DNA of 15,137 nucleotides from Dehalococcoidia bacterium (GTDB taxonomy: Bacteria; Chloroflexota; Dehalococcoidia; GIF9; AB-539-J10), in assembly GCA_030627025.1 (NCBI GenBank), contig DAOUSX010000005.1, positions 1 through 15,137 on the forward strand, in the 5' to 3' direction. Below the pieces are notes generated by a model that was not told the origin of the DNA, ran no database searches, and saw only the letters and a program-made list of their open reading frames with translations. The position numbers and the translations under genes were made by a program. How positions within the stretch are numbered: the first letter of the stretch is position 1; each line of letters begins with the position of its first letter. Shown here piece after piece: positions 3,280 through 15,137 of the stretch.

Positions 3280-4182
3280 TCAACGCCCTTCTGAAACTAT
3301 CTCTTCTATAATCGCCTTTACAGGTTTAATCTCCTTAATCAGAGCGCTCACCTGTCCTGCGCCTGCCGGGAAGAGGTCAAAGTCTCCGCTATTCCAGGCT
3401 TGAGGTGCGTTTATTAAATTATACTCTTGAGTAAGGTCTACATCGGGACTATCCATCTTCTCCCTGAGCTTGGGATTGACGATAACTCGTATATTCAAGT
3501 TTCCCAGAGGAAGGAGGCTGGTCTCTCCATCGCCACAATTGAGTATGGCATTCTTCCATTCTGTGGGGGCGGGGCTTTCCTCAGAGGCTATAAATCGTGT
3601 GCCGACCTGTACTCCTTGAGCACCGAGAGCTAGAGCAGCACGGTAGCCTCGTGAGTCAGCAATGCCTCCAGCGGCGACCACCGGGACATTTACATGGTCT
3701 ACCACTAATGGGACGAGAACCATGGTCGTGGATTCAGGACCAGTGGAGCGAAGACCCCCCGACTCTAATCCCGAAACAACCAGCCCATCCACACCGGCAT
3801 CTATAGCCTTTACGGCATGGGGAAAGGAAAGAACAACATGCATTCCTGTCATCCCCAGGGCGTGGATTTGCGGATAGATATGACGGGGAGAACCTGCTGA
3901 GGTGGTGACAGCTTTTACCCCGGCATCTGCCAGTATCTCGAGGATGTTTTGATTTACAGGGTTCATGATCGAGAGGTTTGCCCCGAATGGTTTATCGGTC
4001 AGTTTCTGGACCTCTTTTACCAGGCGCTTTGCCTCCTGAAGGTCGCTCATGAAGCCCATAGCAAGCATTCCGAAGGCTCCTGCTTCACAAATGGCTGCCA
4101 CTAGCTTCGAGCTGTTCATGGCACCAACTGGTCCGTGAATGATAGGATAACGGCATCCCAACATATCCAGTAATGCAGTCAT
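3280..4182 (-). CDS. Nitronate monooxygenase / FabK-like FMN oxidoreductase (TIM barrel)
   Basis: This 300-residue protein has the NMO / 2-nitropropane dioxygenase fold. It shows N-terminal LGCRYPIIHGPVGAM (8-22), the KPFGANL strand (64-70), and the FMN-phosphate segment AAGGIADSRGYRAALALGAQ followed by GVQVGTRF (170-197). The family normally has a histidine in G-x-E-A-G-G-H. Here that segment is GLESGGL (138-144), with Leu144 at the histidine position, so true nitronate oxidation is doubtful. I chose ATG at 4182 because AGGAGG lies 5 bases upstream (4188-4193); a GTG at 4224 would add 14 unlikely residues directly after the crotonase stop. It follows the crotonase by 42 bases on the same strand and is probably co-transcribed, suggesting a flavin-dependent step on an acyl-CoA or related metabolite. 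The substrate is unknown. Confidence 0.85.
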   Translation of the reverse strand: MTALLDMLGCRYPIIHGPVGAMNSSKLVAAICEAGAFGMLAMGFMSDLQEAKRLVKEVQKLTDKPFGANLSIMNPVNQNILEILADAGVKAVTTSAGSPRHIYPQIHALGMTGMHVVLSFPHAVKAIDAGVDGLVVSGLESGGLRSTGPESTTMVLVPLVVDHVNVPVVAAGGIADSRGYRAALALGAQGVQVGTRFIASEESPAPTEWKNAILNCGDGETSLLPLGNLNIRVIVNPKLREKMDSPDVDLTQEYNLINAPQAWNSGDFDLFPAGAGQVSALIKEIKPVKAIIEEIVSEGR

Positions 4183-4224
4183 AAAAACCTCCTGTTCTGG
4201 CTGGCGTCCATTGCTCCATGACAC

Positions 4225-5010
4225 TCAGGCAGTTGTTTTAGGTTGAGTACCCTTTTTCGTAATTCCCTGTCTGAAGTTCGCACCGAAAATAACGAGACTC
4301 TGCACGATGCCCGCTAATTCAAGTCCCTCAGATGTGCTTAACGAAAAGTTCATATCAATGGCTTTCTTTGCCAGTCCGACCGCTAATGGTCCGTTCCTCA
4401 TGATTTGCTCTGCCCAGGCTGTAGCAGTATCTCGCAGTTGTTCCACAGGGACGACCTTGTTTATCAGCCCAATTCGTTCTGCTTCTGAAGCGGAAATCAT
4501 CTTGCCGGTCAGGATGAGTTCCTTTGCCCTGCCTGTGCCTACTATTCTGGAAAGTCTATTCGAGCCACCTAAATCCGGGATTATGCCCAAAGTTACCTCG
4601 GGTATGGAAAATCTTGCTTCTTCGGAAGCGACTCTGAGGTCACAGGCTAGTATCAATTCAAATGCTCCTCCAAGGGCATATCCATGGATTGCGGCGATAA
4701 CCGCTTTCTCGAGATGTTCTATCTCTGAAAATGCTCGCTGAAGTTTTCTTACTGACGCCCGAAAGTCCTGGACATCACCGCCTTGCTGTGCCAGTTCTGC
4801 TAATTCAGTTAAGTCTGTGCCGCTGCTGAATGCTTTTCCTTCCCCTTGAATGATCACTGCCCCAACATCATTCTTAGCGGCTACTTTGGTCATGCATTGC
4901 TCAAGGTCATCGAACATTTGCAAATTCATGGCGTTCCTTTTTTCGGGTCTATTCAAGCTGACATACAGAATTTTACCCTCCTGTGATACAGAAAGCGTCT
5001 CGAAGTCCAT
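4225..5010 (-). CDS. Enoyl-CoA hydratase/isomerase (crotonase family)
   Basis: The 261-residue protein matches crotonase length and order. Oxyanion-hole segments are KAFSSGTDL (59-67) and IHGYALGGAFEL (108-119). The two glutamates that act as catalytic bases in hydratases are both present, as Glu118 and Glu138 (SIPEVTLGIIPDLGG, 135-149). Asp146 stands where many hydratases have glycine; 'PDxGG' versions are common in uncharacterised paralogues, so hydratase versus isomerase cannot be decided. The C-terminus has NFRQGI (245-250) but lacks the usual FLEKR ending and finishes in KKGTQPKTTA. The start is set by GGAGGG (5019-5024), eight bases before ATG. It is first in a minus-strand pair with the flavoprotein gene and has its own promoter at about 5071-5100. 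Confidence 0.92.
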   Translation of the reverse strand: MDFETLSVSQEGKILYVSLNRPEKRNAMNLQMFDDLEQCMTKVAAKNDVGAVIIQGEGKAFSSGTDLTELAELAQQGGDVQDFRASVRKLQRAFSEIEHLEKAVIAAIHGYALGGAFELILACDLRVASEEARFSIPEVTLGIIPDLGGSNRLSRIVGTGRAKELILTGKMISASEAERIGLINKVVPVEQLRDTATAWAEQIMRNGPLAVGLAKKAIDMNFSLSTSEGLELAGIVQSLVIFGANFRQGITKKGTQPKTTA

Positions 5011-5070
5011 AAAAAGTACCCTCCTTTAGAATTTTATTTCAGTGGGCCAAAAAACGAAAATTCGCACTAT

Positions 5071-5100
5071 ATACTACTCAATCGGGGATTTAATAGTCAA
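5071..5100 (-). promoter_or_regulatory. Promoter of the crotonase/flavoprotein unit
   Basis: On the minus strand TTGACT (5100-5095) and TAGTAT (5076-5071) are 18 bases apart. The -35 matches the consensus in five of six bases and the -10 in four of six. Predicted start is near 5064, leaving a leader of about 54 bases. Confidence 0.5.
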
Positions 5101-5136
5101 ACCTCCTATAAGGGCGATGTGGCTCAAAAAATAAGG

Positions 5137-5142
5137 TATAAT
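5137..5142 (+). promoter_or_regulatory. -10 element upstream of the flavoprotein-SepRS-SepCysS genes
   Basis: A perfect TATAAT lies 31 bases before the TTG start at 5174. No convincing -35 sits 16-18 bases upstream, so the promoter may be weak or activator-dependent. It lies back to back with the minus-strand crotonase promoter. Confidence 0.5.
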
Positions 5143-5173
5143 AAGGCAAATTTCTGAAAAGGGAGGTAAGACA

Positions 5174-6148
5174 TTGTTTAAGACAAGGATAACTGAAATG
5201 CTGGGGATTGAATATCCCATAATTTGTGGCGGGATGCAGTATGTATCAAATGCAGAGCTTGTTGCCGCTGTATCCCAAGCTGGCGGCATGGGTATGCTTG
5301 CTGTGGGCAATTTTGCTTCTAAGGAAGAACTAAGAGACGAGATTCGAAAGATTAAAACGCTTACCGACAAGCCCTTCGGCGTCAACGTTACTTTCATGCC
5401 TGTGCTTGAATTCGTGGACAGGGAAGGGATGATGGATACAGCTATTGAGGAAGGGGTTAGCGCTTTTGAAACATCGGGGAGAATCACCGAAGAGCATGTG
5501 CAACGTATTAAGAAGGGCAATGCGAAACATATTCATAAGGTAGCTCGGGTGAGGGATGCTCGGACTGCGGAGCGGCTGGGGGCGGATGCCGTGGCTATAG
5601 TGGGATTTGAATGTGGCGGCATACCACCAATGGATGAGATAACTACCTTTATTCAGGTTCCGGTTGCCGTCGGTGCCGTGAGCGTTCCTGTTATTGCTGG
5701 AGGTGGGATCGGTGATGCCCGCAGTTTTGTAGCGGCCTTAGCTTTAGGAGCGGAGGGTGTGGTTATGGGCACTCGCTTCATGGCTACCAAGGAAAGCCTG
5801 ATCCATTCGAATGCTAAACAGGCTATGATCAACGCTAAGGAGACTGATACTATATGCGTGATGCGTTCCCTGGGCATCATGGAAAGAACTCTAAAAACCG
5901 AAGCCTCACAAAAAGTTGTCGAGATGGAGAAAAAGGGAGCCACTCTTGAGGAGTTGATTCCGCTTATTATAGGTAAAAAGGTTCAGGAAGCTTTTGAAAC
6001 GGGTGATTTGCACACGGGAATTCTGCCTTGTGGACAGGTCACCGGGCTTATCAACGAAGTCCCTAGCGTGAAGGAAGTCATTGATGATATGGTAAGTGGT
6101 GCTGGGGAAATCTTGAAGCGTTTAAGCAAGATGGTTGTGGCGGGCTGA
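5174..6148 (+). CDS. Nitronate monooxygenase / FabK-like FMN oxidoreductase upstream of SepRS
   Basis: This 324-residue TIM-barrel flavoprotein is a paralogue of the minus-strand gene at 3280-4182. It carries LGIEYPIICGGMQYV (10-24), KPFGVNVTFMP (66-76) and the FMN-binding stretch VIAGGGIGDARSFVAALALG (173-192) plus VVMGTRF (196-202). The segment that is usually G-F-E-C/A-G-G-H reads GFECGGI (144-150), so the family's catalytic histidine is replaced by Ile150. Start is TTG at 5174, supported by GGGAGGT at 5161-5167. It ends at TGA 6146-6148, only 2 or 38 bases before SepRS depending on that gene's start, so it is probably co-transcribed with SepRS and SepCysS. Whether it has any role in cysteine formation is unknown; chance linkage is equally possible. 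Confidence 0.87.
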   Translation: MFKTRITEMLGIEYPIICGGMQYVSNAELVAAVSQAGGMGMLAVGNFASKEELRDEIRKIKTLTDKPFGVNVTFMPVLEFVDREGMMDTAIEEGVSAFETSGRITEEHVQRIKKGNAKHIHKVARVRDARTAERLGADAVAIVGFECGGIPPMDEITTFIQVPVAVGAVSVPVIAGGGIGDARSFVAALALGAEGVVMGTRFMATKESLIHSNAKQAMINAKETDTICVMRSLGIMERTLKTEASQKVVEMEKKGATLEELIPLIIGKKVQEAFETGDLHTGILPCGQVTGLINEVPSVKEVIDDMVSGAGEILKRLSKMVVAG

Positions 6149-6186
6149 GTGTGGTGGGGAGGAGATTTATTGTCGCGCTGCAGGAG

Positions 6187-7713
6187 ATGTTTGATTTAAA
6201 CAAAATACGGGCTCAGGCAAGGAGAGATTTTACCGAGACGTGGACATCGACGGCCAGGCTTTTGCCGGTAGATACTGAGGTCCGTCTCCAGGGTCGTGGT
6301 AGACCGCACCTTCTGCGTGAGCTAATTCAAAAATCCAGGGAAATATTATTAAACCTTGGCTTTGACGAGGTGGAAAATCTTACCATCTTGCCTGATAGCG
6401 ACGTTTCCAAACAATATGGTCCTGAGGCGCGAGTCATCCTTGACAGGGTTTATTATCTTGCCGAATTGCCGCGTCCCGAGATAGGTTTGAGCAACAAGAA
6501 GATAACCGAGGCAAGAAAGATAGTGCAGGAACTTGATGTCAGGAAGTTGCGGGGCATCTTGAGGGCGTATAAAAAAGGAGAAATTGAAGCCGATAACCTT
6601 GTAGAGGAGCTTATCGCTGGGTTAGGTATTACTGACCATCAGGCTACTGACCTGTTGAGTCGCGTTTTCCCTGAACTGGAGAAAATGAGGCCGTTGTCTT
6701 CCAACAAGACGCTCAGGAGTCACATGACGGCTACCTGGTTTCACACATTAGCGGCGATACAGGATAAAGCTAAGTTTCCCGTCGCCTTGTTTTCGGTAGG
6801 TCCTCGGTATCGTAATGAACAGAGGGAGGATGCTCATCATTTACGAATTCATCATTCAGCGTCAATAGTAATAATGGATGCCAACATTTCCTTAAGTGCT
6901 GGTAGGAAGATAACCGAGGAAATTCTCAGGCAATATGGTTTTTCTGATATTAAGATCGAAACGAAGATGGCAACATCCAAATATTATGCTCCTGGTCAGG
7001 AGCAGGAAGTTTTTGTTAATTACAACGGTGAATGGATAGAAGTTGCTGATATTGGTATGTATTCCCCGGTATCGCTGGCGAACTTTAACGTTAAATATCC
7101 GGTATTCAACGCTGGCTTAGGCATCGAGAGATTAGCGATGATACTTTATGAAGTAGGTGATATTAGGAAAGTAGCATATCCTCAATTCTCTGTGGTGGAA
7201 TTTTCCGACGAGGAGATAGCCAGGTCTATCACCTATATAGCAAGTCCAGGAACTTCTCGGGGGAGAAAGATAGCCAGTGCAATTGAGCAAACTGCACGAA
7301 AGCACAAGGATGAAATTGCTCCCTGTGAGTTTCTGGCCTGGGAGGATGACCTCGTTGAGGTGAAGGTCGTGGAGAAGGAGGAAGGCAAGAGGCTTATCGG
7401 TCCTGCTGGCTTCAATGAAATTTGTGTAGCTGATGGTACTATTTGTAGCGATATTGTCCCTTCGGGAGAATACAGCGGGGTAAACTATATGCATGCTATC
7501 GCTATGGGTGCAGCAGCTCTAATAGAGAATAGCCACGAGGATTTAACCTATCAGGTGAAGGCGATAAAGCATCTCTCAGACCTCAATTTGCAGATTCCCA
7601 CAGCTATTCGTGAATATATAGAGAAACAACAGAAAAAGATTGGAGTTGGTGGGGCTGTTTTTATAACGGTAAAATCGCAATTTAAAGGAGGGAAGGGTAA
7701 GGTTGAAGGATAA
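6187..7713 (+). CDS. sepS: O-phosphoseryl-tRNA synthetase (SepRS, class II aaRS)
   Basis: SepRS charges tRNA-Cys with O-phosphoserine, the first step of tRNA-dependent cysteine formation. Counted from ATG 6187 (508 aa), the class II core is clear: LRSHMTATW (176-184), motif 2 around RYRNEQRED (207-215), LRIHHSAS (219-226) and motif 3 GLGIERLAM (310-318). Thr181, Ser224, Ser226 and Asn308 line up, from memory of archaeal SepRS, with the residues holding the phosphoserine phosphate. The N-terminal KQYGPEA and YYLAELPRP segments and the C-terminal region also follow archaeal SepRS. The open frame reaches back to GTG 6151, but archaeal proteins begin at the equivalent of MFDLNKIRAQARRDF, favouring ATG 6187. 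Neither start has an ideal ribosome site: GGGGAGGAG at 6157-6165 is too far from 6187, and GGAG touches that ATG. It overlaps SepCysS by 11 bases. The short length compared with alanyl- or phenylalanyl-tRNA synthetases and the HHSAS motif exclude those relatives. Confidence 0.95.
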   Translation: MFDLNKIRAQARRDFTETWTSTARLLPVDTEVRLQGRGRPHLLRELIQKSREILLNLGFDEVENLTILPDSDVSKQYGPEARVILDRVYYLAELPRPEIGLSNKKITEARKIVQELDVRKLRGILRAYKKGEIEADNLVEELIAGLGITDHQATDLLSRVFPELEKMRPLSSNKTLRSHMTATWFHTLAAIQDKAKFPVALFSVGPRYRNEQREDAHHLRIHHSASIVIMDANISLSAGRKITEEILRQYGFSDIKIETKMATSKYYAPGQEQEVFVNYNGEWIEVADIGMYSPVSLANFNVKYPVFNAGLGIERLAMILYEVGDIRKVAYPQFSVVEFSDEEIARSITYIASPGTSRGRKIASAIEQTARKHKDEIAPCEFLAWEDDLVEVKVVEKEEGKRLIGPAGFNEICVADGTICSDIVPSGEYSGVNYMHAIAMGAAALIENSHEDLTYQVKAIKHLSDLNLQIPTAIREYIEKQQKKIGVGGAVFITVKSQFKGGKGKVEG

Positions 7714-8833
7714 GAGGCTGCAGAAGCTTGGTGAGTTACACCGAAAGCATAAAGATATTATAACTCTTATGCCCTTGCAGACAGGTGGGCTGCTCACTGA
7801 AGCGGCAAAAAAGGCTTTGATAGAATTCGGAGATGGTTACTCCGTGTGTGATTTTTGCGCGGGTAATCTAAGTAACATTGCAAATCCTCCTATTCGGGAG
7901 TTTGTGCACGAGTTTTTGCCTGAATTTTTGGGTTGTGAAGTTGCCGCTGTAACTCACGGAGCAAGAGAAGCTAAATTCATGATAATGCATTCGCTGGCTA
8001 GGCTTGGTGACTCGATTATCGTCGATGGTAATCGGCATTACACTACAATTGTTGCTGCTCAAAGAGCGGGATTAAACGTGGTTGAGGTACCCAGCTCGGG
8101 CTACCCTGGATTCACCATTGATGTTAACGAGTATGAGCCATTGATAGAAAAACATCACCCCAGGATGATTCTATTAACCTACCCCGACGGTAACTATGGA
8201 AATATCCCTGATGCAAAGAGGCTGGGGGAGATTGCTCAAAACCATGATGTTCCGTTTATCCTCAACGGGGCGTACGCTGTAGGTAGAATGCCTGTGAATA
8301 TGGATGAGTTAGGGGCTGATTTCATCATCGGCAGCGGTCACAAGAGTATGGCGTCTGCCGGACCTTGTGGAGTATTGGGGATGAAAAAGAGGTGGGAGGA
8401 GGTGGTATTGAGGAAATCGGAAACATATAGCAATAAAGAACTTGAGCTTCTTGGTTGTGCATTAAGAGGAGTTCCTGTGGTAACGCTTATGGCATCGTTT
8501 CCTTATGTGGTGGAAAGGGTTCATGATTGGGATGAGCAGGTACTAAAGGCACAGTGGTTTTCCGATGAGGTTGAAAAATTGGGATTCAAGCAGTTGGGGG
8601 AAAAGCCACACAGGCATGACTTATTGCATTTTGAAACGCTGATGCTTTACGAGATATCCAAGCGTGTTCGGGAGCGAGGATATTTTCTTTACAAAGAGCT
8701 CAAAGATAGAGGAATTTGGGGTCTGCAACCAGGCTTGGCCAGAGCTTTTAAGCTCTCTACTTTTGCTGCTAGCAGAGAACAGTTGAGTTTTGTGGTCGAT
8801 TCTTTTAAGTCTATCTTGAGTAAATATGGCTGA
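7703..8833 (+). CDS. pscS: Sep-tRNA:Cys-tRNA synthase (SepCysS, PLP enzyme)
   Basis: SepCysS replaces the phosphate of Sep-tRNA-Cys with sulfur, giving Cys-tRNA-Cys. The 376-residue protein has the family start PLQTGGLLT (24-32), THGAREAKF (84-92) that binds PLP and phosphate, LTYPDGNYGNIPD (158-170), ILNGAYAVGR (186-195) and the PLP lysine Lys214 in GSGHKSMASAGP (210-221). The three cysteines used for sulfur transfer in archaeal SepCysS are all present as Cys49 and Cys52 (VCDFCAGN) and Cys252 (LLGCALRG), so the enzyme should be active. Start is TTG at 7703 with strong AAAGGAGGG at 7684-7692; it lies inside the end of SepRS, 11 bases overlapping, implying translational coupling. No separate SepCysE scaffold gene is visible, and the N-terminal extension before the core is short (about 20 residues). 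SepSecS and cysteine desulfurases are less likely because of the cysteine pattern and the SepRS partner. Confidence 0.95.
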   Translation: MKDKRLQKLGELHRKHKDIITLMPLQTGGLLTEAAKKALIEFGDGYSVCDFCAGNLSNIANPPIREFVHEFLPEFLGCEVAAVTHGAREAKFMIMHSLARLGDSIIVDGNRHYTTIVAAQRAGLNVVEVPSSGYPGFTIDVNEYEPLIEKHHPRMILLTYPDGNYGNIPDAKRLGEIAQNHDVPFILNGAYAVGRMPVNMDELGADFIIGSGHKSMASAGPCGVLGMKKRWEEVVLRKSETYSNKELELLGCALRGVPVVTLMASFPYVVERVHDWDEQVLKAQWFSDEVEKLGFKQLGEKPHRHDLLHFETLMLYEISKRVRERGYFLYKELKDRGIWGLQPGLARAFKLSTFAASREQLSFVVDSFKSILSKYG

Positions 8834-8842
8834 CTGCGGCAG

Positions 8843-9493
8843 TTAAGCGGCAATGAAAGACTCTTTCCACCTTTGTCGGTGAGCTTCCTTTAATTCCTGA
8901 AAATGTGCCTGAAAGGAGGCAGAGGTTATAGTATTTGTGCTCATGAGCACAGCATCCTCCCTGTTATTTGAGTAGTAACGAGGGCGTCTCCCCACTGCTT
9001 GGAATCCATATTTTCGGTAAAGTGACTGAGCTGCTTCGTTGGAAGCGCGTACTTCTAAGGTGATTGTTTTAATGCTTAGTTGGGTGGCAAGGTCAATAAG
9101 TGAGATAAGTAATCTCTCTCCTATTCCACTGCAGCGATGATTGCTCCTTACTCCAAGGGCGGTGATGTGTCCTTCATCGGGCATAATCCAAAAGCCGGCG
9201 AAACCAAGGACATACTGCTCATTAGTCGTGTATTTTACATTGTGATAATTATGGCTAAGAAGTCGCTTATACCAGGGAAGTTCGGGCATGATTTGCTTGT
9301 TTGTATTCAGTCCATGCTCTTCTTCTGCACATGCCACAATATAGCGAGCTAATGGATTGTGAATCTCCCGGTGATATGAAGCATAGGAGCGAAATAATTG
9401 CTCCTCAGAGAAAGCCTCTTGGTCTATCTCAGCTACTTGATGGATGTCTCTATCCTCTGCAAGTCGGATAGTATATTGGTTTTCCCCCACCAT
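8843..9493 (-). CDS. rimI: RimI-type ribosomal-protein-alanine N-acetyltransferase (GNAT) with an internal insertion
   Basis: The GNAT acetyl-CoA site is RCSGIGERLL (120-129), preceded by HITALGVRSNH (109-119). The RimI signature follows: LEVRASNEAAQSLYRKYGF (146-164), then GRRPRYYSNNREDAVLM (168-184). RimI acetylates the N-terminal alanine of ribosomal protein S18. At 216 residues it is about 60 longer than usual RimI (near 150). The extra length is an insertion at roughly 56-93 between early strands, containing PELPWYKRLL, plus a basic helical C-terminal tail (190-216). The start at ATG 9493 has GGTAGG upstream. It converges on SepCysS with only 9 bases between the two stops. Because of the insertion, specificity for S18 is inferred rather than certain. 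Confidence 0.85.
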   Translation of the reverse strand: MVGENQYTIRLAEDRDIHQVAEIDQEAFSEEQLFRSYASYHREIHNPLARYIVACAEEEHGLNTNKQIMPELPWYKRLLSHNYHNVKYTTNEQYVLGFAGFWIMPDEGHITALGVRSNHRCSGIGERLLISLIDLATQLSIKTITLEVRASNEAAQSLYRKYGFQAVGRRPRYYSNNREDAVLMSTNTITSASFQAHFQELKEAHRQRWKESFIAA

Positions 9494-9525
9494 TTTAACC
9501 TACCATAATTGACTGATACGGGTTT

Positions 9526-9554
9526 ATTATAGACTACCTTGATATAATGGTGAA
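9526..9554 (-). promoter_or_regulatory. Promoter of rimI
   Basis: On the minus strand TTCACC (9554-9549) and a perfect TATAAT (9531-9526) are 17 bases apart. It overlaps the pyrD promoter on the other strand. Confidence 0.5.
9540..9548 (+). promoter_or_regulatory. Extended -10 promoter of pyrD
   Basis: TGATATAAT is a full extended -10 (TGn-TATAAT). No -35 is convincing, as expected for this class. Predicted start is near 9555, which is downstream of the ATG at 9547 and argues against that start for pyrD. Confidence 0.5.
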
Positions 9555-9564
9555 GGGTCTAAGA

Positions 9565-10503
9565 ATGGAAGGTGGTTTGTTAAACACCAGCGTTCAGCTA
9601 GCGCCACATCATCCTGAAGGATTAACCTTGGTTAATCCGGTGATGACTGCTTCAGGCACTTTCGGTTATGGCATAGAATATAGTGAGCTCGTCGACATAC
9701 AGAAACTGGGGGCTATTGTATGCAAGGGAATCACTCTCGAGCCTAGGAGTGGCAATCCTCAGCCACGATTGATAGAAACAAAGTGTGGATTGCTTAATTC
9801 CGTTGGGTTGGAGAATATCGGCGTTGATGCTTTGATTGAAGATAAAGCGCCGGTATGGGCAGGCTGGCAAGTGCCAGTCATCGTTAATATTGCTGGGGAA
9901 ACAATTGATGAATATGTTCAACTTGCTGCTAAGTTAGAAGGTGTGCCGGGGGTAAGTGGCATTGAGTTGAATATCAGCTGTCCTAATGTCTCGGCAGGAG
10001 GGATGGAATTTGGGTTGATTCCTGAAACGGCAGCTCAAGTAACCTCAGCAGTTAAGGCTGTGACTACTTTGCCTCTCATCGTGAAATTAACTCCAAATGT
10101 GACTGATATTAAAGAAATTGCTCTGGCAGTGGAGGAAGTCAAGGCTGATGCAGTGTGCTTGATCAACACCATAAAGGCAATGGCAATAGATATAAATGAA
10201 AGGAAGCCATGCTTGGGAAATATCACCGGTGGACTTTCTGGTCCTGCCATCAAGCCAATAGCCCTCTACATGGTGTATGAAGTAGCCAAGGTAGTCAGTA
10301 TTCCGGTGATAGGTTGTGGTGGCATTGCTTCCGGCGAGGATGCCCTGGAGTTCATCATGGCTGGCGCCAGCGCAATCCAGGTGGGTACAGCTAATCTCAC
10401 CAATCCTCGTGCTAGTCTTGATGTACTGCAGGGGATAGAGCGCTTTATGAAGGAAAACGGAATCACAAATTTAGTTGACATAATCAGTACAGCGACGAAA
10501 TGA
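9565..10503 (+). CDS. pyrD: Dihydroorotate dehydrogenase, class 1B catalytic subunit
   Basis: PyrD oxidises dihydroorotate to orotate in pyrimidine synthesis. Family marks are NPVMTASGTFGYG (near the N-terminus), CKGITLEPRSGNPQPRL, LLNSVGLENIG, NISCPN with the catalytic cysteine that defines class 1 enzymes, LIVKLTPNVTDI, and the FMN-phosphate segments GCGGIASGEDALEFIMAGAS and QVGTANL. Class 1B enzymes pair with a PyrK iron-sulfur/FAD subunit, which is not in this window. I favour ATG 9565 (312 aa) over ATG 9547 because the latter overlaps the -10 element and the family's N-terminus aligns better with the shorter form; TTG 9577 with GGAAGGTGG before it is also possible. The C-terminus is of normal length, so the TGA at 10501-10503 is a genuine end. 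Confidence 0.95.
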   Translation: MEGGLLNTSVQLAPHHPEGLTLVNPVMTASGTFGYGIEYSELVDIQKLGAIVCKGITLEPRSGNPQPRLIETKCGLLNSVGLENIGVDALIEDKAPVWAGWQVPVIVNIAGETIDEYVQLAAKLEGVPGVSGIELNISCPNVSAGGMEFGLIPETAAQVTSAVKAVTTLPLIVKLTPNVTDIKEIALAVEEVKADAVCLINTIKAMAIDINERKPCLGNITGGLSGPAIKPIALYMVYEVAKVVSIPVIGCGGIASGEDALEFIMAGASAIQVGTANLTNPRASLDVLQGIERFMKENGITNLVDIISTATK

Positions 10504-10707
10504 ACCAAAGGGTCTGCAAGTGGTGTTGAACTTGGTGAAGTAATTGATAACTTGCTTGGTGAACAGGAGACCAGGCGGAAACAAGGAGCAGTGGGATATT
10601 TGACTAAAGGTGTTATGGATAGGGAGAGAATTTATACTGATGGCTTGATTGCTGCTTTAGTTCCCTTTTTGAACGAGAATTTGTTTATGAACGGAGGCTC
10701 GAGATGA
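10504..10707 (+). pseudogene. 3' remnant of inosine/xanthosine triphosphatase gene (DUF84, YjjX-like)
   Basis: The frame directly after the pyrD stop, and in the same phase, encodes about 67 residues. They include GVELGEVIDNLLGEQETR, KQGAVGYLTKGVMDRERIY and LIAALVPFLNENLF. This matches the C-terminal third of DUF84 non-canonical purine NTP phosphatases, which show ELAEVMDEL, GAIGLLT and ALIPFIN in E. coli YjjX. The first 100 or so residues, with the nucleotide-binding region, are absent, and no credible start codon or ribosome site exists, so it should not make an active enzyme. Its TGA overlaps the next gene's ATG as ATGA (10704-10707), which suggests that the intact ancestor was translationally coupled to the saccharopine-dehydrogenase-like gene. 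A deletion that joined the pyrD end to this tail explains the arrangement. Confidence 0.72.
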
Positions 10708-11846
10708 AGATTGTCTTGCTTGGTGGAGGGGGGATGGGGGAAATTGCGCTGAGGGATTTGGTTGACAGCGGTGTTAAGCGAATCGTTATCGCCGATTATG
10801 ATAGGCCCAAGGTGGAATCCTTGGTGAAAGACTATAAAGCTGAAGGGGTGGAAATTTCAGCGGCGTTTGTGGATGCCAACGACAATGCTTCTTTGATGAG
10901 GGTGATGCAGGATGCCAGCGTGGTAGCCAGCGCTATCGGTCCATTCAGCGAATACGGGGTTAAGGTTCTCAAAGCGGCGATAGAGGCTCGGGTGAACTTT
11001 GTCGATATTTGCGATGATCCTCAGCCAACGATTGATGAGCTTAATTTACATGACGAGGCTAAACAAGCTGGTATAACTGCGATAATTGGCATGGGCAATA
11101 ATCCCGGGGTAGGAAATTTATGTGCCAAATATGGGGCGCAGAAGCTGGACGAAGTTGAGGAAATTGAGTTCATCTGGGTTCATCCTGCTATTTCTCGAGT
11201 GGGAGGCGCTGGTGTCCTGCATGCTATTGGCGCATTTTCAGGTGATGTGCCTTCCTATCACCAAGGGCAGTGGGTTGATGTGCCTGCTGGTTCAGATAAA
11301 GAGGTAATTGATTTTCCCGAACCTGTGGGCAGAGTCGAGGTATTCCATTCGGGACATCCTGAGCCCATAACCGTTCCCAGATATATTTCAGTCAAGGATG
11401 TCTCCTGTAAAGGTGGCATCGTTCCAGTATGGGCAGGACAGGAATTCATAAGGTTTCTCTCCTATGGGCTGGGAGATGCTGAGCCTATTAAAGTGAAAGG
11501 AGTCTCGGTGGTGCCCAGGGAGTTCACCGTTTCCCTCCTGGAATCTCTGCTTCACAGGATGGGTAAGGACATGATTGGTGGAGGGCAGCTTACCAAGGTA
11601 TCACGGGTAATCGTGAAGGGCAAGAAGGAGGGCAGGGCAACAAGTTACACCTATGATAGGATAGGCAATGATTGGGAAGCGGGCATAGCATTATCCATCG
11701 GGGCTCAGATGCTCGCCAGTGGCGGTATCACAGAGAAAGGCGTGTTCGCACCGGAGGGCTGCGTTGAGCCACAAGAATTCTTCCAGGAGCTGAAGAAAAG
11801 AGGGTTAACAATCTCCGAAAAGATGATGACAGAGCATTATCTATAA
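10704..11846 (+). CDS. Saccharopine dehydrogenase family NAD(P)-dependent oxidoreductase
   Basis: The 380-residue protein begins with a Rossmann nucleotide site, VLLGGGGMG (4-12), and an acidic residue after the second strand (Asp31 in IADYD, 29-33), which favours NAD over NADP. It continues with SAIGPFSEYG (76-85), NFVDICDD (98-105) and the family loop GNNPGVGNL (131-139). The C-terminal half (150-330) matches the catalytic/dimerisation domain of saccharopine-dehydrogenase-like proteins, many of which do not act on saccharopine. No lysine-pathway neighbours are present, so the substrate is unknown; an acyl or amino acid derivative linked to the surrounding CoA genes is possible. ATG at 10704 is supported by GGAGG at 10693-10697. 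It overlaps the DUF84 remnant stop by four bases and may be transcribed from the pyrD promoter. Confidence 0.88.
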   Translation: MKIVLLGGGGMGEIALRDLVDSGVKRIVIADYDRPKVESLVKDYKAEGVEISAAFVDANDNASLMRVMQDASVVASAIGPFSEYGVKVLKAAIEARVNFVDICDDPQPTIDELNLHDEAKQAGITAIIGMGNNPGVGNLCAKYGAQKLDEVEEIEFIWVHPAISRVGGAGVLHAIGAFSGDVPSYHQGQWVDVPAGSDKEVIDFPEPVGRVEVFHSGHPEPITVPRYISVKDVSCKGGIVPVWAGQEFIRFLSYGLGDAEPIKVKGVSVVPREFTVSLLESLLHRMGKDMIGGGQLTKVSRVIVKGKKEGRATSYTYDRIGNDWEAGIALSIGAQMLASGGITEKGVFAPEGCVEPQEFFQELKKRGLTISEKMMTEHYL

Positions 11847-11869: not shown

Positions 11870-13516
11870 TCATTGATAAATGTCCTGAAATTGATCCCTC
11901 AAATCCTTCTTTAAGGCCTTCCCTGAAGGGTTTTTGGGAATTTCATCCAGCACAATGACCTTCTTGGGTACTTTATACCCGGCGAGGTTTTCCTTGCAGA
12001 ACTGGATGATTTCTTCCTCGGTGATGCTCTCGTTCGGTTTAGCGACCACAAACGCGGTAACCGCCTCCATCCACCTCGGATGGGAAAAACCCACTATAGC
12101 GACATCAGCAACTTTGGGGTGGCCAGATATCACTGATTCCACCTCAACGGTGGAAACATTTTCGCCTCCACTTTTTACGACGTCCTTCTTTCTATCGACG
12201 AAATAGAAGTGGTGTTCCTCATCCATTATGGCAAGGTCACCGGTATGGAGCCAGCCTCCTCTGAAAATCTCCTTGGTTTTTTCCTCTTCCTTGTAATATC
12301 CCAGCATTACCGAAGCGCTTCTAGCGACCATTTCCCCGACGGTTCCCGGCGGAACATCATTGTCGTTTTCATCCACTATTTTCATCTCCACCATGTTATG
12401 AGGCTGTCCGATTGGCTCTGCTCCTCCGAATCTTTCCTCAGACTCCTTAACCTTCCTGAGCACATCAGGGTATTGCAACAATGTTCCCAGGGGTGTCAGT
12501 TCCGATTGCCCGTAGTAATTCATCCAGTAGACTTCTGGTAATATGTCAACCAATTTCCTCATAGATGCTCCGGGGATGGGTGCACCAAAGAGGATAACTC
12601 TTTTCACTGAGGCGAAAGTTTTTCTCATAAACTCTTCGATATTCGGTATGGGCAGCTTCAGGATATTGATGAAGACAGTAGGGGGATAGACCAGGTAGGT
12701 AACCTTCTCGTTCTGAACGAGTTGCAGGATCTCCTGAGGACTGGGTTCATAGTGCATGATAACCTTCACTTGAACGCCAAGAGTGGCCATGAGTAAGTTC
12801 ACACCGGCAACATGATAAAGCGGTATCGAGTCTATCATGCATTCATCCGGCGTCCATGCCACTGCGTTGAGGTCGCCAAGCTGGCTCAGGAAAGTGGAAT
12901 GCCAATTACTGTGGCTATTCATGACACCTTTAGGCATCGCCTCAGTCCCCGAGGTATACATCAAAGTCATGACGTCGTCTCCATTGACCTCGAAATATGG
13001 CTCGGCATCGGAATACCTTTCTGAACATAACTGGTCGAAATCAAGCCATCTCTCAGGTAGTTGCTTCGCACCAGCAAGATTTATCAGGATGTAATGTTTC
13101 ACGCTGGGCATATCTTGCTGTAGTTCCCTTACGTTATCCAGTAGCTCGTCTTCCACAATGAAAGCAACAGGTTCAGCATGATTGATTAGTTGAGTAATTT
13201 CTCTTGCCTTGAGAGCGAAATTCAGGGGAGTTATCCAGGCTCCCATCTTTGCCAGGGCGTACAAATAGATGGCGTATTGGGAACAATTATGTGAGATGAT
13301 AGCGACCCTGTCTCCTTTCTTGATTCCGAGCTTGGTTAAAGCATTGGCAAATCTGTTTACTTTCTGGTTGAGCTCTTCGAAAGTGAGCCGAGTTGTGACT
13401 GTGCCTTTATAGCTATAAACTAATGCTTCTTTCTTGGCAGATTTTTGTGCGCTCCGCCTGAGCATGTCCCCAACACACAGCCTCCTCATAACATGCGACT
13501 GCAGTGCCTTTTCCAT
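11870..13516 (-). CDS. Acyl-CoA synthetase (AMP-forming, long-chain fatty-acid-CoA ligase-like)
   Basis: The 548-residue enzyme carries all ANL motifs: phosphate loop YTSGTEAMPKGV (187-198), NYYGQSE (333-339), HTGD with Asp427, hinge DRKKD (441-445), SGGENVSTVEVE (449-460), and catalytic Lys533 in PSGKALKK. The loop has Glu-Ala-Met instead of Thr-Gly-x, a variant seen in a subgroup of fatty acyl-CoA synthetases. The substrate is probably a fatty or medium-chain acid, which is inference. Start is ATG 13516 with AGGAGG (13524-13529) seven bases upstream; a strong promoter lies at 13564-13592. It is transcribed divergently from another ligase gene and converges on the saccharopine-dehydrogenase-like gene with 23 bases between their ends and no clear terminator. 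Confidence 0.92.
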   Translation of the reverse strand: MEKALQSHVMRRLCVGDMLRRSAQKSAKKEALVYSYKGTVTTRLTFEELNQKVNRFANALTKLGIKKGDRVAIISHNCSQYAIYLYALAKMGAWITPLNFALKAREITQLINHAEPVAFIVEDELLDNVRELQQDMPSVKHYILINLAGAKQLPERWLDFDQLCSERYSDAEPYFEVNGDDVMTLMYTSGTEAMPKGVMNSHSNWHSTFLSQLGDLNAVAWTPDECMIDSIPLYHVAGVNLLMATLGVQVKVIMHYEPSPQEILQLVQNEKVTYLVYPPTVFINILKLPIPNIEEFMRKTFASVKRVILFGAPIPGASMRKLVDILPEVYWMNYYGQSELTPLGTLLQYPDVLRKVKESEERFGGAEPIGQPHNMVEMKIVDENDNDVPPGTVGEMVARSASVMLGYYKEEEKTKEIFRGGWLHTGDLAIMDEEHHFYFVDRKKDVVKSGGENVSTVEVESVISGHPKVADVAIVGFSHPRWMEAVTAFVVAKPNESITEEEIIQFCKENLAGYKVPKKVIVLDEIPKNPSGKALKKDLRDQFQDIYQ

Positions 13517-13680: not shown

Positions 13681-15137
13681 ATGAATGTGGCGCAATTAGG
13701 GAAAGAAAATCTCGAGAGGTTTGGGGAATATACTTCATCGATATTCGAGGGTAAGGAATATACCAATGTTGAAATGGACCGCTGGTCAAACAGAGTTGGC
13801 AATGCGCTTAAAAGCCTTGGTGTGAAGAGAGGTGATAGGGTTGTCATCCAGCTCCCCAACTGCCTAGAAGTGCAAGTAAGCTTCAGGGGAATATTCAAAA
13901 TTGGCGCTGCGGTTACCCCACTTAGCTTTCTTATCTCGGCTGAGGAAACAGCATACATCTATCAGGATTCCACTCCGGTTGTGGTAATAAGCAGCTCGGA
14001 ATTCATGGAAAAGGTCTCCCGTGGCAAGGCGTCAGCGCCGAGTATAAAGCATGTAATTTCAGTTGACGAAGCCCCGGACACACTCTTATTTAAGGACATA
14101 GTGGATAAAAGCTCAGACAAATTGGAGATGGAAAATACCAAGGATGATGAACTAGCGGCTTTGCTTTACACTGCTGGGACTACGGGAAAACCTAAGGGAG
14201 TTATGCTCGCCCACCAGGCTTTGTATGCTAATGCTGAAGGGCAGGCTGAAACCCTCAAGGGACCAGTCATGCAGGGCGATGTGATGTTAAGCTCACTTCC
14301 CCTTTCTCATGCCTATGGCATGGCAACAATGGGCGCCTTTCTCTACGGCGGCAATAAATGGATATTGGTCAGATGGTTCGACACCGACCTCATTTTTGAA
14401 GCGATACAGAAACATAAGGTAAAGCTCACAACCCAGGTGCCTACTATGTTCGTCTACCAGAACATATATCCTGAGCCCAAGAAATACGACCTTTCTTCAA
14501 TGAAGTACTGGATTTCCGGCTCTGCTCCATTGAACGAGGAGACCAGAAAGGAGTTCGAGTCTAAATACCCCGGCAAGGTATACCAGGGTTGGGGATTAAC
14601 CGAGGCGACAGCCAATAATTCCTGTTGCCCATTTGATAGACCATACAAGCCGGCGTCCATAGGCAAGCCATTGAATGGTAAGATGAGAGTGGTGGACGAA
14701 GATGGCAAACCACTCAAGGTTGGCGAGGTAGGGGAGCTAGTGGTGGGGGGATCTGTGGTGATGCAGGGATACTGGAACAAGCCCGAGGAAACTAAGGAAG
14801 CATTGCAGGGCGGCTGGCTTCGCACTGGAGATATGGGTTACATGGATGAAGATGGATATTTCTTCATCGTAGAGCGCAAGAAGAATATGATAATAAAGGC
14901 CGGGGAAAATATCTTCCCAAATGAGATTGAGACAGTTATCTATCAACATTCCAAGGTTTCCGAGGCAGCCGTTGTTGGCGTTGCTGATCAGAAATATGGC
15001 GAGGAACTCAAGGCGTTTATCGTGTTGAAGCCGGGTGAAAAAGCCACTGAGCAAGAGGTAATCGATTTTTGCAAGGGGAAGCTCAGCAGCTTTAAGACGC
15101 CAAAATATGTTCAGTTCCTCGATTCGCTCCCTAAGAA
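13681..15137 (+). CDS. Acyl-CoA ligase (AMP-forming), 3' end beyond the window
   Basis: At least 485 residues are encoded, open to the window edge. The phosphate loop is canonical, YTAGTTGKPKGVML (163-176). Further motifs are WGLTEAT (304-310), GWLRTGDMGYMDEDGYF (378-394, Asp384), hinge ERKKN (398-402) and KAGENIFPNEIE (406-417). The window stops just before the C-terminal lysine motif, so perhaps 20-40 residues are missing. The N-terminus is short compared with other ligases (the first 25 residues lead straight into the core), but ATG 13681 is well supported by AAGGAGG at 13664-13670 and AAAGG at 13671-13675. It is divergent from the ligase at 11870-13516, and the two share a 164-base intergenic region. 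It resembles long-chain or O-succinylbenzoate-type ligases; the substrate is unknown. Confidence 0.92.
   Translation, partial: MNVAQLGKENLERFGEYTSSIFEGKEYTNVEMDRWSNRVGNALKSLGVKRGDRVVIQLPNCLEVQVSFRGIFKIGAAVTPLSFLISAEETAYIYQDSTPVVVISSSEFMEKVSRGKASAPSIKHVISVDEAPDTLLFKDIVDKSSDKLEMENTKDDELAALLYTAGTTGKPKGVMLAHQALYANAEGQAETLKGPVMQGDVMLSSLPLSHAYGMATMGAFLYGGNKWILVRWFDTDLIFEAIQKHKVKLTTQVPTMFVYQNIYPEPKKYDLSSMKYWISGSAPLNEETRKEFESKYPGKVYQGWGLTEATANNSCCPFDRPYKPASIGKPLNGKMRVVDEDGKPLKVGEVGELVVGGSVVMQGYWNKPEETKEALQGGWLRTGDMGYMDEDGYFFIVERKKNMIIKAGENIFPNEIETVIYQHSKVSEAAVVGVADQKYGEELKAFIVLKPGEKATEQEVIDFCKGKLSSFKTPKYVQFLDSLPK

Follow-up and report, generated by a model that had tools for sequence, protein, structure and literature searches.

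A putative SepRS-SepCysS operon in a Dehalococcoidia bacterium and its apparent exchange with the CysRS route across one bacterial family

The DNA analysed here (the window, 15,137 nucleotides) is contig DAOUSX010000005.1, or C158 in our genome set, of the draft genome of a Dehalococcoidia bacterium (G000; 1.18 Mb, 204 contigs, 66% complete, 2.9% contamination). On its forward strand lie two adjacent open reading frames (ORFs), at 6151..7713 and 7703..8833, which overlap by 11 bases. As the initial annotation had proposed, they encode O-phosphoseryl-tRNA synthetase (SepRS, gene sepS; Sep, O-phosphoserine) and Sep-tRNA:Cys-tRNA synthase (SepCysS); both products exceed the curated NCBIfam cut-offs and match structures in the Protein Data Bank (PDB) almost end to end. 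The best explanation of the evidence as a whole, to which we assign a probability of roughly 0.93, is that 6151..8833 is a working SepRS-SepCysS operon, the two activities being predicted from sequence.

The first ORF, with at most 520 codons for amino acids, scored 438.6 bits against the SepRS equivalog model TIGR00470 (cut-off 380.65), and the runner-up NCBIfam model, PheS, reached 96.3 bits against its own cut-off of 237.45, which rules out a PheRS identity. Pfam places the class II core (PF01409) at residues 112-348. The top PDB match is 2du3, the SepRS of A. fulgidus (E 2.7e-108; query 14-511, chain 3-533), and the alignment takes in both the class II core and the C-terminal anticodon-binding region. 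While the extent of the ORF stands, the listed start, GTG at 6151, is uncertain: the true start lies somewhere between this codon and ATG at 6187 (M13). The 2du3 match begins at residue 14, beside M13, and the homologue in the sister genome G001 (94% complete) begins about nine codons downstream of the listed GTG.

The phosphoserine-binding residues noted in the initial annotation are present. In the alignment to 2du3, T193, S236, S238 and N320 fall on the Thr, Ser, Ser and Asn that we take to be the Sep-binding Thr188, Ser231, Ser233 and Asn325 of the A. fulgidus enzyme. Among 32 SepRS sequences from the host's family, the two Ser and the Asn are each kept in all 32, and the Thr is present in 30, with Ser in its place in two. 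All 32 family sequences have Asp where A. fulgidus has Thr305; seven of eight archaeal sequences have Thr there, and the remaining one, from a Lokiarchaeota genome (L109), has Asp. This Lokiarchaeota sequence has a long branch and falls on the bacterial side of the midpoint-rooted SepRS tree. The available text of PMC5688128 names none of the SepRS residues that we queried.

The stretch with which archaeal SepRS recognises m1G37 has no counterpart in the window protein when aligned to 2du3: eight residues (Ile444-Arg451 by our own count) are unmatched, and Asp434 follows. The part of PMC5424206 available to us reports the same pattern, a stretch missing from Ile444 and then Asp, for bacterial SepRS. 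Since its loss is a reported bacterial trait, the m1G37-recognition motif does not define the SepRS family.

The second ORF scored 526 bits against the SepCysS model TIGR02539 (cut-off 365.25) and carries the Pfam domain PF05889; the highest-scoring cysteine desulfurase model, SufS, gave 43.1 bits, and a desulfurase identity is thereby ruled out. Its top PDB match is 2e7i, Sep-tRNA:Cys-tRNA synthase (E 2.5e-143, query 14-375). By our own alignment, K214 is what we take to be the lysine that binds pyridoxal phosphate (PLP), and C49, C52 and C252 are presumably the three characteristic cysteines. The lysine and all three cysteines are invariant in 30 of 30 sequences, namely those of the 37 over-cut-off genomes for which loci were available. 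A loop near residues 144-147 is missing, a four-residue gap relative to approximately 146-149 of 2e7i (own count). Sequence comparison settles the folds of both proteins.

Both genes are under purifying selection. Against the G001 homologues, SepRS is 88% identical with a ratio of nonsynonymous to synonymous substitution rates (dN/dS) of 0.095, and SepCysS is 87% identical with a dN/dS of 0.098, values like that of the neighbouring pyrD (0.109). A putative Shine-Dalgarno-like sequence, AAAGGAGGG, can be read directly at 7684..7692 (forward strand), ahead of the TTG start of SepCysS. Of the 34 genomes that carry SepRS and SepCysS on one contig and strand, 33 have them adjacent, their profile ends lying fewer than 700 bases apart. 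In G011 (C37; L231 4716-12625), 5.3 kb separates SepCysS from SepRS, and the gap holds genes for a class-V aminotransferase (desulfurase-like), a Sulf_transp protein and a cation-efflux protein.

The window belongs to a Dehalococcoidia (Chloroflexota) bacterium and is no archaeal contaminant, because the gene order around the operon is the same in G001 and because SepRS recurs across the family. All 12 window genes tested have counterparts, 80-92% identical, that follow one another in unchanged order on a single G001 contig, and SepRS passes its cut-off in 32 of the family's 52 genomes, with fragments in three more (G017, G025 and G069). It exceeded the cut-off in none of 24 genomes from other families of the order. 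Across 393 sampled genomes of the class it was found in 22 (20 over the cut-off and two fragments), all from one family. As a control on the profile, it passed the cut-off in two of 14 genomes, those of M. jannaschii and M. acetivorans. A scan of named genomes, which reaches close relatives only and is uninformative on Parcubacteria and the like, gave 40 loci, of which 30 are in metagenome-assembled genomes (MAGs) of Dehalococcoidia or Chloroflexi and ten are archaeal, with SepRS identities of 36-41%. The SepRS tree used sequences from the genome set together with eight of the ten archaeal loci (L117 and L119 were left out; L118 is a shortened ORF), leaving aside the 30 bacterial loci of the named-genome scan; a homologous-protein search (best 120 of 1166 proteins) fed no tree. 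In it, the 32 family sequences form one clade, and each genus with at least two sequences forms one group except g10, the support for g2 being weak (76).

In the proposed pathway, O-phosphoserine would arise from the product of SerA by way of a transaminase. SepRS would ligate it to an ordinary bacterial tRNA-Cys, and SepCysS, which depends on PLP and has three conserved cysteines, would then swap the phosphate for sulfur on the tRNA to give Cys-tRNA-Cys. SerA is over its cut-off in 41 of 52 family genomes, G000 among them. Methanogens of the M. jannaschii type have no CysRS, rely on SepRS and make their cysteine on the tRNA; the present case has SepRS without CysRS in common with them and differs in that host and tRNA are bacterial. 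With the A. fulgidus proteins (2du3 and 2e7i) those of the window share near full-length homology and active-site residues; they differ in the 36-41% identity of SepRS to the ten archaeal loci, in the missing m1G37 stretch, in the Asp at Thr305 and in a host-family tRNA-Cys that is bacterial, with A37.

That such pairs occur in Chloroflexi had been noted in the initial annotation, and so they do: according to the text available, Mukai et al. 2017 (PMC5424206) described a Chloroflexi SepRS-SepCysS operon, showed in vitro activity, with charging of tRNA-Cys by Sep for a Chloroflexi SepRS, and named CG2_30_46_19. The window has the same two genes, its SepRS is 86% identical to that of the CG2_30_46_19 locus, and the two share the loss of the Ile444 stretch, the three SepCysS cysteines and, in the window's relatives, the A37 tRNA-Cys; we found no biochemical difference. 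By analogy with these homologues, SepRS and SepCysS of the window would be active. The system in Chloroflexi is therefore already known, and what is added here is its family-wide genomic setting: the four mentions of CysRS (cysteinyl-tRNA synthetase) found in the available part of PMC5424206 are on other subjects than the presence of CysRS genes in these bacteria, so that relative to that text the survey of CysRS, CysE (serine acetyltransferase) and CysK (cysteine synthase) is new. Our literature searches, whose scope excluded subscription papers and preprints, recognised no family-wide survey of the exchange between the Sep system and CysRS. In the portions available, a 2022 survey (PMC8762117) extends the known distribution of the system and reports SepCysE as absent from bacteria, and PMC11580382 and PMC8007984 mention SepRS in organisms or methanogens without CysRS.

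To score the 52 genomes of the family, any match to SepRS or SepCysS, fragments included, was taken as a Sep system, with the exclusion of an operon relic in G029 described below. Sep only accordingly includes G008 and G021, which have SepCysS without SepRS, while G072 and G073, with all or part of SepCysS, fall among the genomes with both systems. On this basis 26 genomes have the Sep system only, 13 have both, nine have CysRS only and four have neither; SepCysS is over its cut-off in 37 of 52 and CysRS in 22 of 52, the CysRS profile having passed in 13 of 14 control genomes. The Sep system is the only one in nine of 15 genera (g2, g3, g4, g6, g7, g10, g12, g14 and g15), CysRS is the only one in g5, g8 and g11, and g1, g9 and g13 are mixed. 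CysE occurs in 19 of 52 genomes, CysK over its cut-off in 16 and a PF01053 enzyme in 11. These enzymes follow CysRS: CysE is present in 17 of 22 genomes with CysRS versus two of 30 without, and CysK in 14 of 22 versus two of 30. The two genomes with CysE and CysK and no CysRS are G023 and G063, in each of which at most about 0.75 kb separates cysK from the contig end. Since the spacing from CysRS to cysK is about 0.77 kb in G067 and G033, a CysRS gene at that distance would have been cut off in these two genomes.

Neither CysRS nor CysE nor CysK was detected in G000 (66% complete) or in its sister G001 (94%). Judging from gene content, this organism and most genera of the family appear to have the Sep route as their sole source of Cys-tRNA, and probably of cysteine as well. 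The gene content of these draft genomes further points to a replacement of CysRS and the CysE/CysK pathway by the Sep route, with some relatives having kept or regained the direct one. We consider it likely, if less certain than the identity of the operon itself, that the Sep operon took the place of both CysRS and the serine acetyltransferase/cysteine synthase pathway, that most genera now make and encode cysteine only on the tRNA, and that the two routes are exchangeable modules on an unchanged tRNA-Cys.

Several observations weigh against this interpretation. With G000 only 66% complete, the absence of CysRS, CysE, CysK and tRNA-Cys from it proves little alone, and G002, of the same genus, has SepRS alongside two CysRS genes, CysE, CysK and a PF01053 enzyme (5% contamination). 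Because 13 genomes hold parts of both systems, not every genome with the Sep route depends on it alone. Matches to the CysK family below the cut-off occur in G008, G028 and G036, all without CysRS, and that of G028 (343.6 against a cut-off of 344.15) is just under it; likewise without CysRS are G017, which has a fragment of PF01053, and G023, in which both CysE and CysK occur. G008 and G021 carry SepCysS without any SepRS match. Finally, the tendency of the Sep system and CysRS to exclude each other is modest (one-sided Fisher p 0.026, relatedness ignored).

The two CysRS genes of G002 (L236 2-1393 and L237 4174-5538) are 88% identical to each other, which could reflect strain mixing or contamination. 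In G021, contig C73 (L235 2029-8074) carries SepCysS with no SepRS on the contig, and a tRNA-Cys gene overlaps its 3' end by 11 bases. Beyond the tRNA-Cys lie a homocysteine-biosynthesis gene (PF01837) and NIL/ferredoxin, ABC-ATPase and SufBD genes, with an Rrf2 regulator upstream, the whole forming a sulfur-assimilation cluster. Operons of tRNA-Cys with a second SepCysS copy are described in the part of PMC5424206 that was available; the G021 locus resembles these, and the window has no tRNA-Cys gene.

The strongest alternative is that the operon is accessory: CysRS would charge tRNA-Cys, the Sep pair would supply additional cysteine, and the missing CysRS genes would reflect incomplete assemblies. 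Some methanogens carry both CysRS and Sep systems, and in the family the coexistence is real, because both share one contig in G067, G033 and G031; the loss of CysRS at its usual distance from the terminal cysK genes of G023 and G063 would also fit. This explanation is nevertheless improbable. Eight genomes that are 92-99% complete (G001 94%, G004 92%, G005 92%, G009 92%, G011 99%, G016 99%, G030 95% and G034 92%) have the Sep pair and no match to CysRS, CysE (E 1e-15), CysK (E 1e-30) or PF01053 (E 1e-20). If misses are independent and occur at 1 - completeness, the chance that CysRS was missed in all eight is about 1.2e-11, and over all 26 of the 39 Sep-system genomes in which CysRS went undetected it is 2.8e-24.

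A second alternative, that the pair has changed its substrate or is a decaying relic, seems very unlikely to us. The uniform Asp at the Thr305 position could speak for the former, and the existence of a genuine operon relic in G029 shows that such decay occurs. However, the core Sep-site residues are retained and dN/dS is about 0.1, in keeping with the initial annotation's view of a functional pair, and Chloroflexi SepRS and SepCysS are active in vitro (PMC5424206, available text). Inactivity would, moreover, deprive the genomes with SepRS only of any known source of Cys-tRNA. The remaining alternative, an archaeal contaminant or mis-binned contig in a bacterial MAG, might be suggested by the better-known archaeal occurrence of SepRS and by the fragmented, slightly contaminated assembly, but has next to no probability and is ruled out by synteny with G001, the family-wide distribution, the single SepRS clade, the bacterial neighbours on the same contig and the mere 41% identity of the nearest archaeal SepRS found.

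The tRNA-Cys of the family bears on the proposed exchange of a working Sep operon with CysRS. Of 32 candidate loci in relatives, 29 could be parsed (L185, L220 and L230 were left out), and all 29 genes have A37 and U73, alike in Sep-only genomes and in the CysRS-only genomes G007, G010, G022 and G064. Therefore the exchange needed no new tRNA. No tRNA-Cys was found in G000, either among its 20 tRNA matches or by pattern search. In relatives the gene clusters with tRNA-Trp and tRNA-Leu in ten of the 11 loci with enough flanking sequence, the exception being G021, where it stands beside SepCysS. Contig C140 of G000 begins at tRNA-Trp, so that the cluster is cut at the contig end, and the gene is probably missing because of this break.

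The family also preserves traces of the history of this exchange. Four states, namely Sep only, both systems, CysRS only, and CysRS with a deleted Sep relic, occur within it, and all four are found in g9. The relic lies in G029 (C67; L240 4103-4622), a genome that is 95% complete and has CysRS and no SepRS. There, SepRS residues 4-74 are fused to SepCysS residues 164-198, followed by SepCysS 203-278 in another frame (relatives' numbering); the operon was deleted in this genome. CysE adjoins CysRS in nine of 19 loci of the order's other families, with f2, f3 and f4 each represented, and in both g5 loci and both g8 loci, and for this reason the adjacency is probably ancestral. In G002 and the g9 genomes G031, G033, G066 and G067, a stretch of no more than 6 kb holds CysRS, CysK, CysE and the PF01053 enzyme in another order. 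In the CysRS tree, built from sequences cut at the BLAST start, each genus with at least two sequences forms a single group, and the other families of the order cluster together. This topology fits vertical descent with repeated loss, and re-acquisition of CysRS in g9 and G002 is compatible with it.

To our knowledge, CysRS is near-universal in bacteria, and swapping out a whole aminoacyl-tRNA synthetase is a rare event. The lack of CysE, CysK and CysRS may lead automated reconstructions to class such bacteria as cysteine auxotrophs or to score their genomes as incomplete. What makes a lineage keep SepRS or exchange it for CysRS is a long-standing question, posed for archaea by Mukai et al. 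(in the text available of PMC5424206); with several states of the exchange present in one family while the tRNA stays constant, it becomes testable in bacteria.

Around the operon, the bacterial character of the neighbourhood claimed in the initial annotation holds for PyrD and RimI; the sigma70-like promoters do not add to it, since the nine found in 5000-9600 are no excess over the 7.5 (sd 2.8) in shuffled sequence. A FabK/nitronate-monooxygenase-like gene (5174..6148, forward strand; PF03060) ends two bases before the listed SepRS start, is the upstream neighbour in G001 as well, and is possibly co-transcribed with sepS. Convergent with SepCysS is a gene for a RimI-like acetyltransferase (8843..9493, reverse strand; TIGR01575, 112.9 bits, cut-off 86.4), which also neighbours SepCysS in G001 and, at 52% identity, in G011. 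It is followed by pyrD (9547..10503, forward strand), encoding a dihydroorotate dehydrogenase of the class 1 subfamily (NF005574, 432.1 bits, cut-off 269; TIGR01037, 356.2 bits, cut-off 270), whose position relative to the operon is unchanged in G001. Terminator-like sites are above expectation (ten versus 3.8, sd 1.8, in shuffles), and the ten listed include no site immediately past the SepCysS stop at 8833.

Farther out, the FabK/nitronate-monooxygenase-like gene has a paralogue at 3280-4224, and the two flank an enoyl-CoA hydratase gene; both score well under the FabK cut-off (207.6 for 3280-4224 and 270.5 for 5174-6148, against 453.1). The gene at 10704-11846 has Pfam saccharopine-dehydrogenase domains and is below the cut-off of all eight NCBIfam models listed. 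Three AMP-binding, acyl-CoA ligase-like genes lie within the 15 kb: that at 947-2614 is under the cut-off for all 25 NCBIfam models listed (25 of 105), and those at 11870-13516 and 13681-15135 are acyl-CoA ligase-like by sequence alone.

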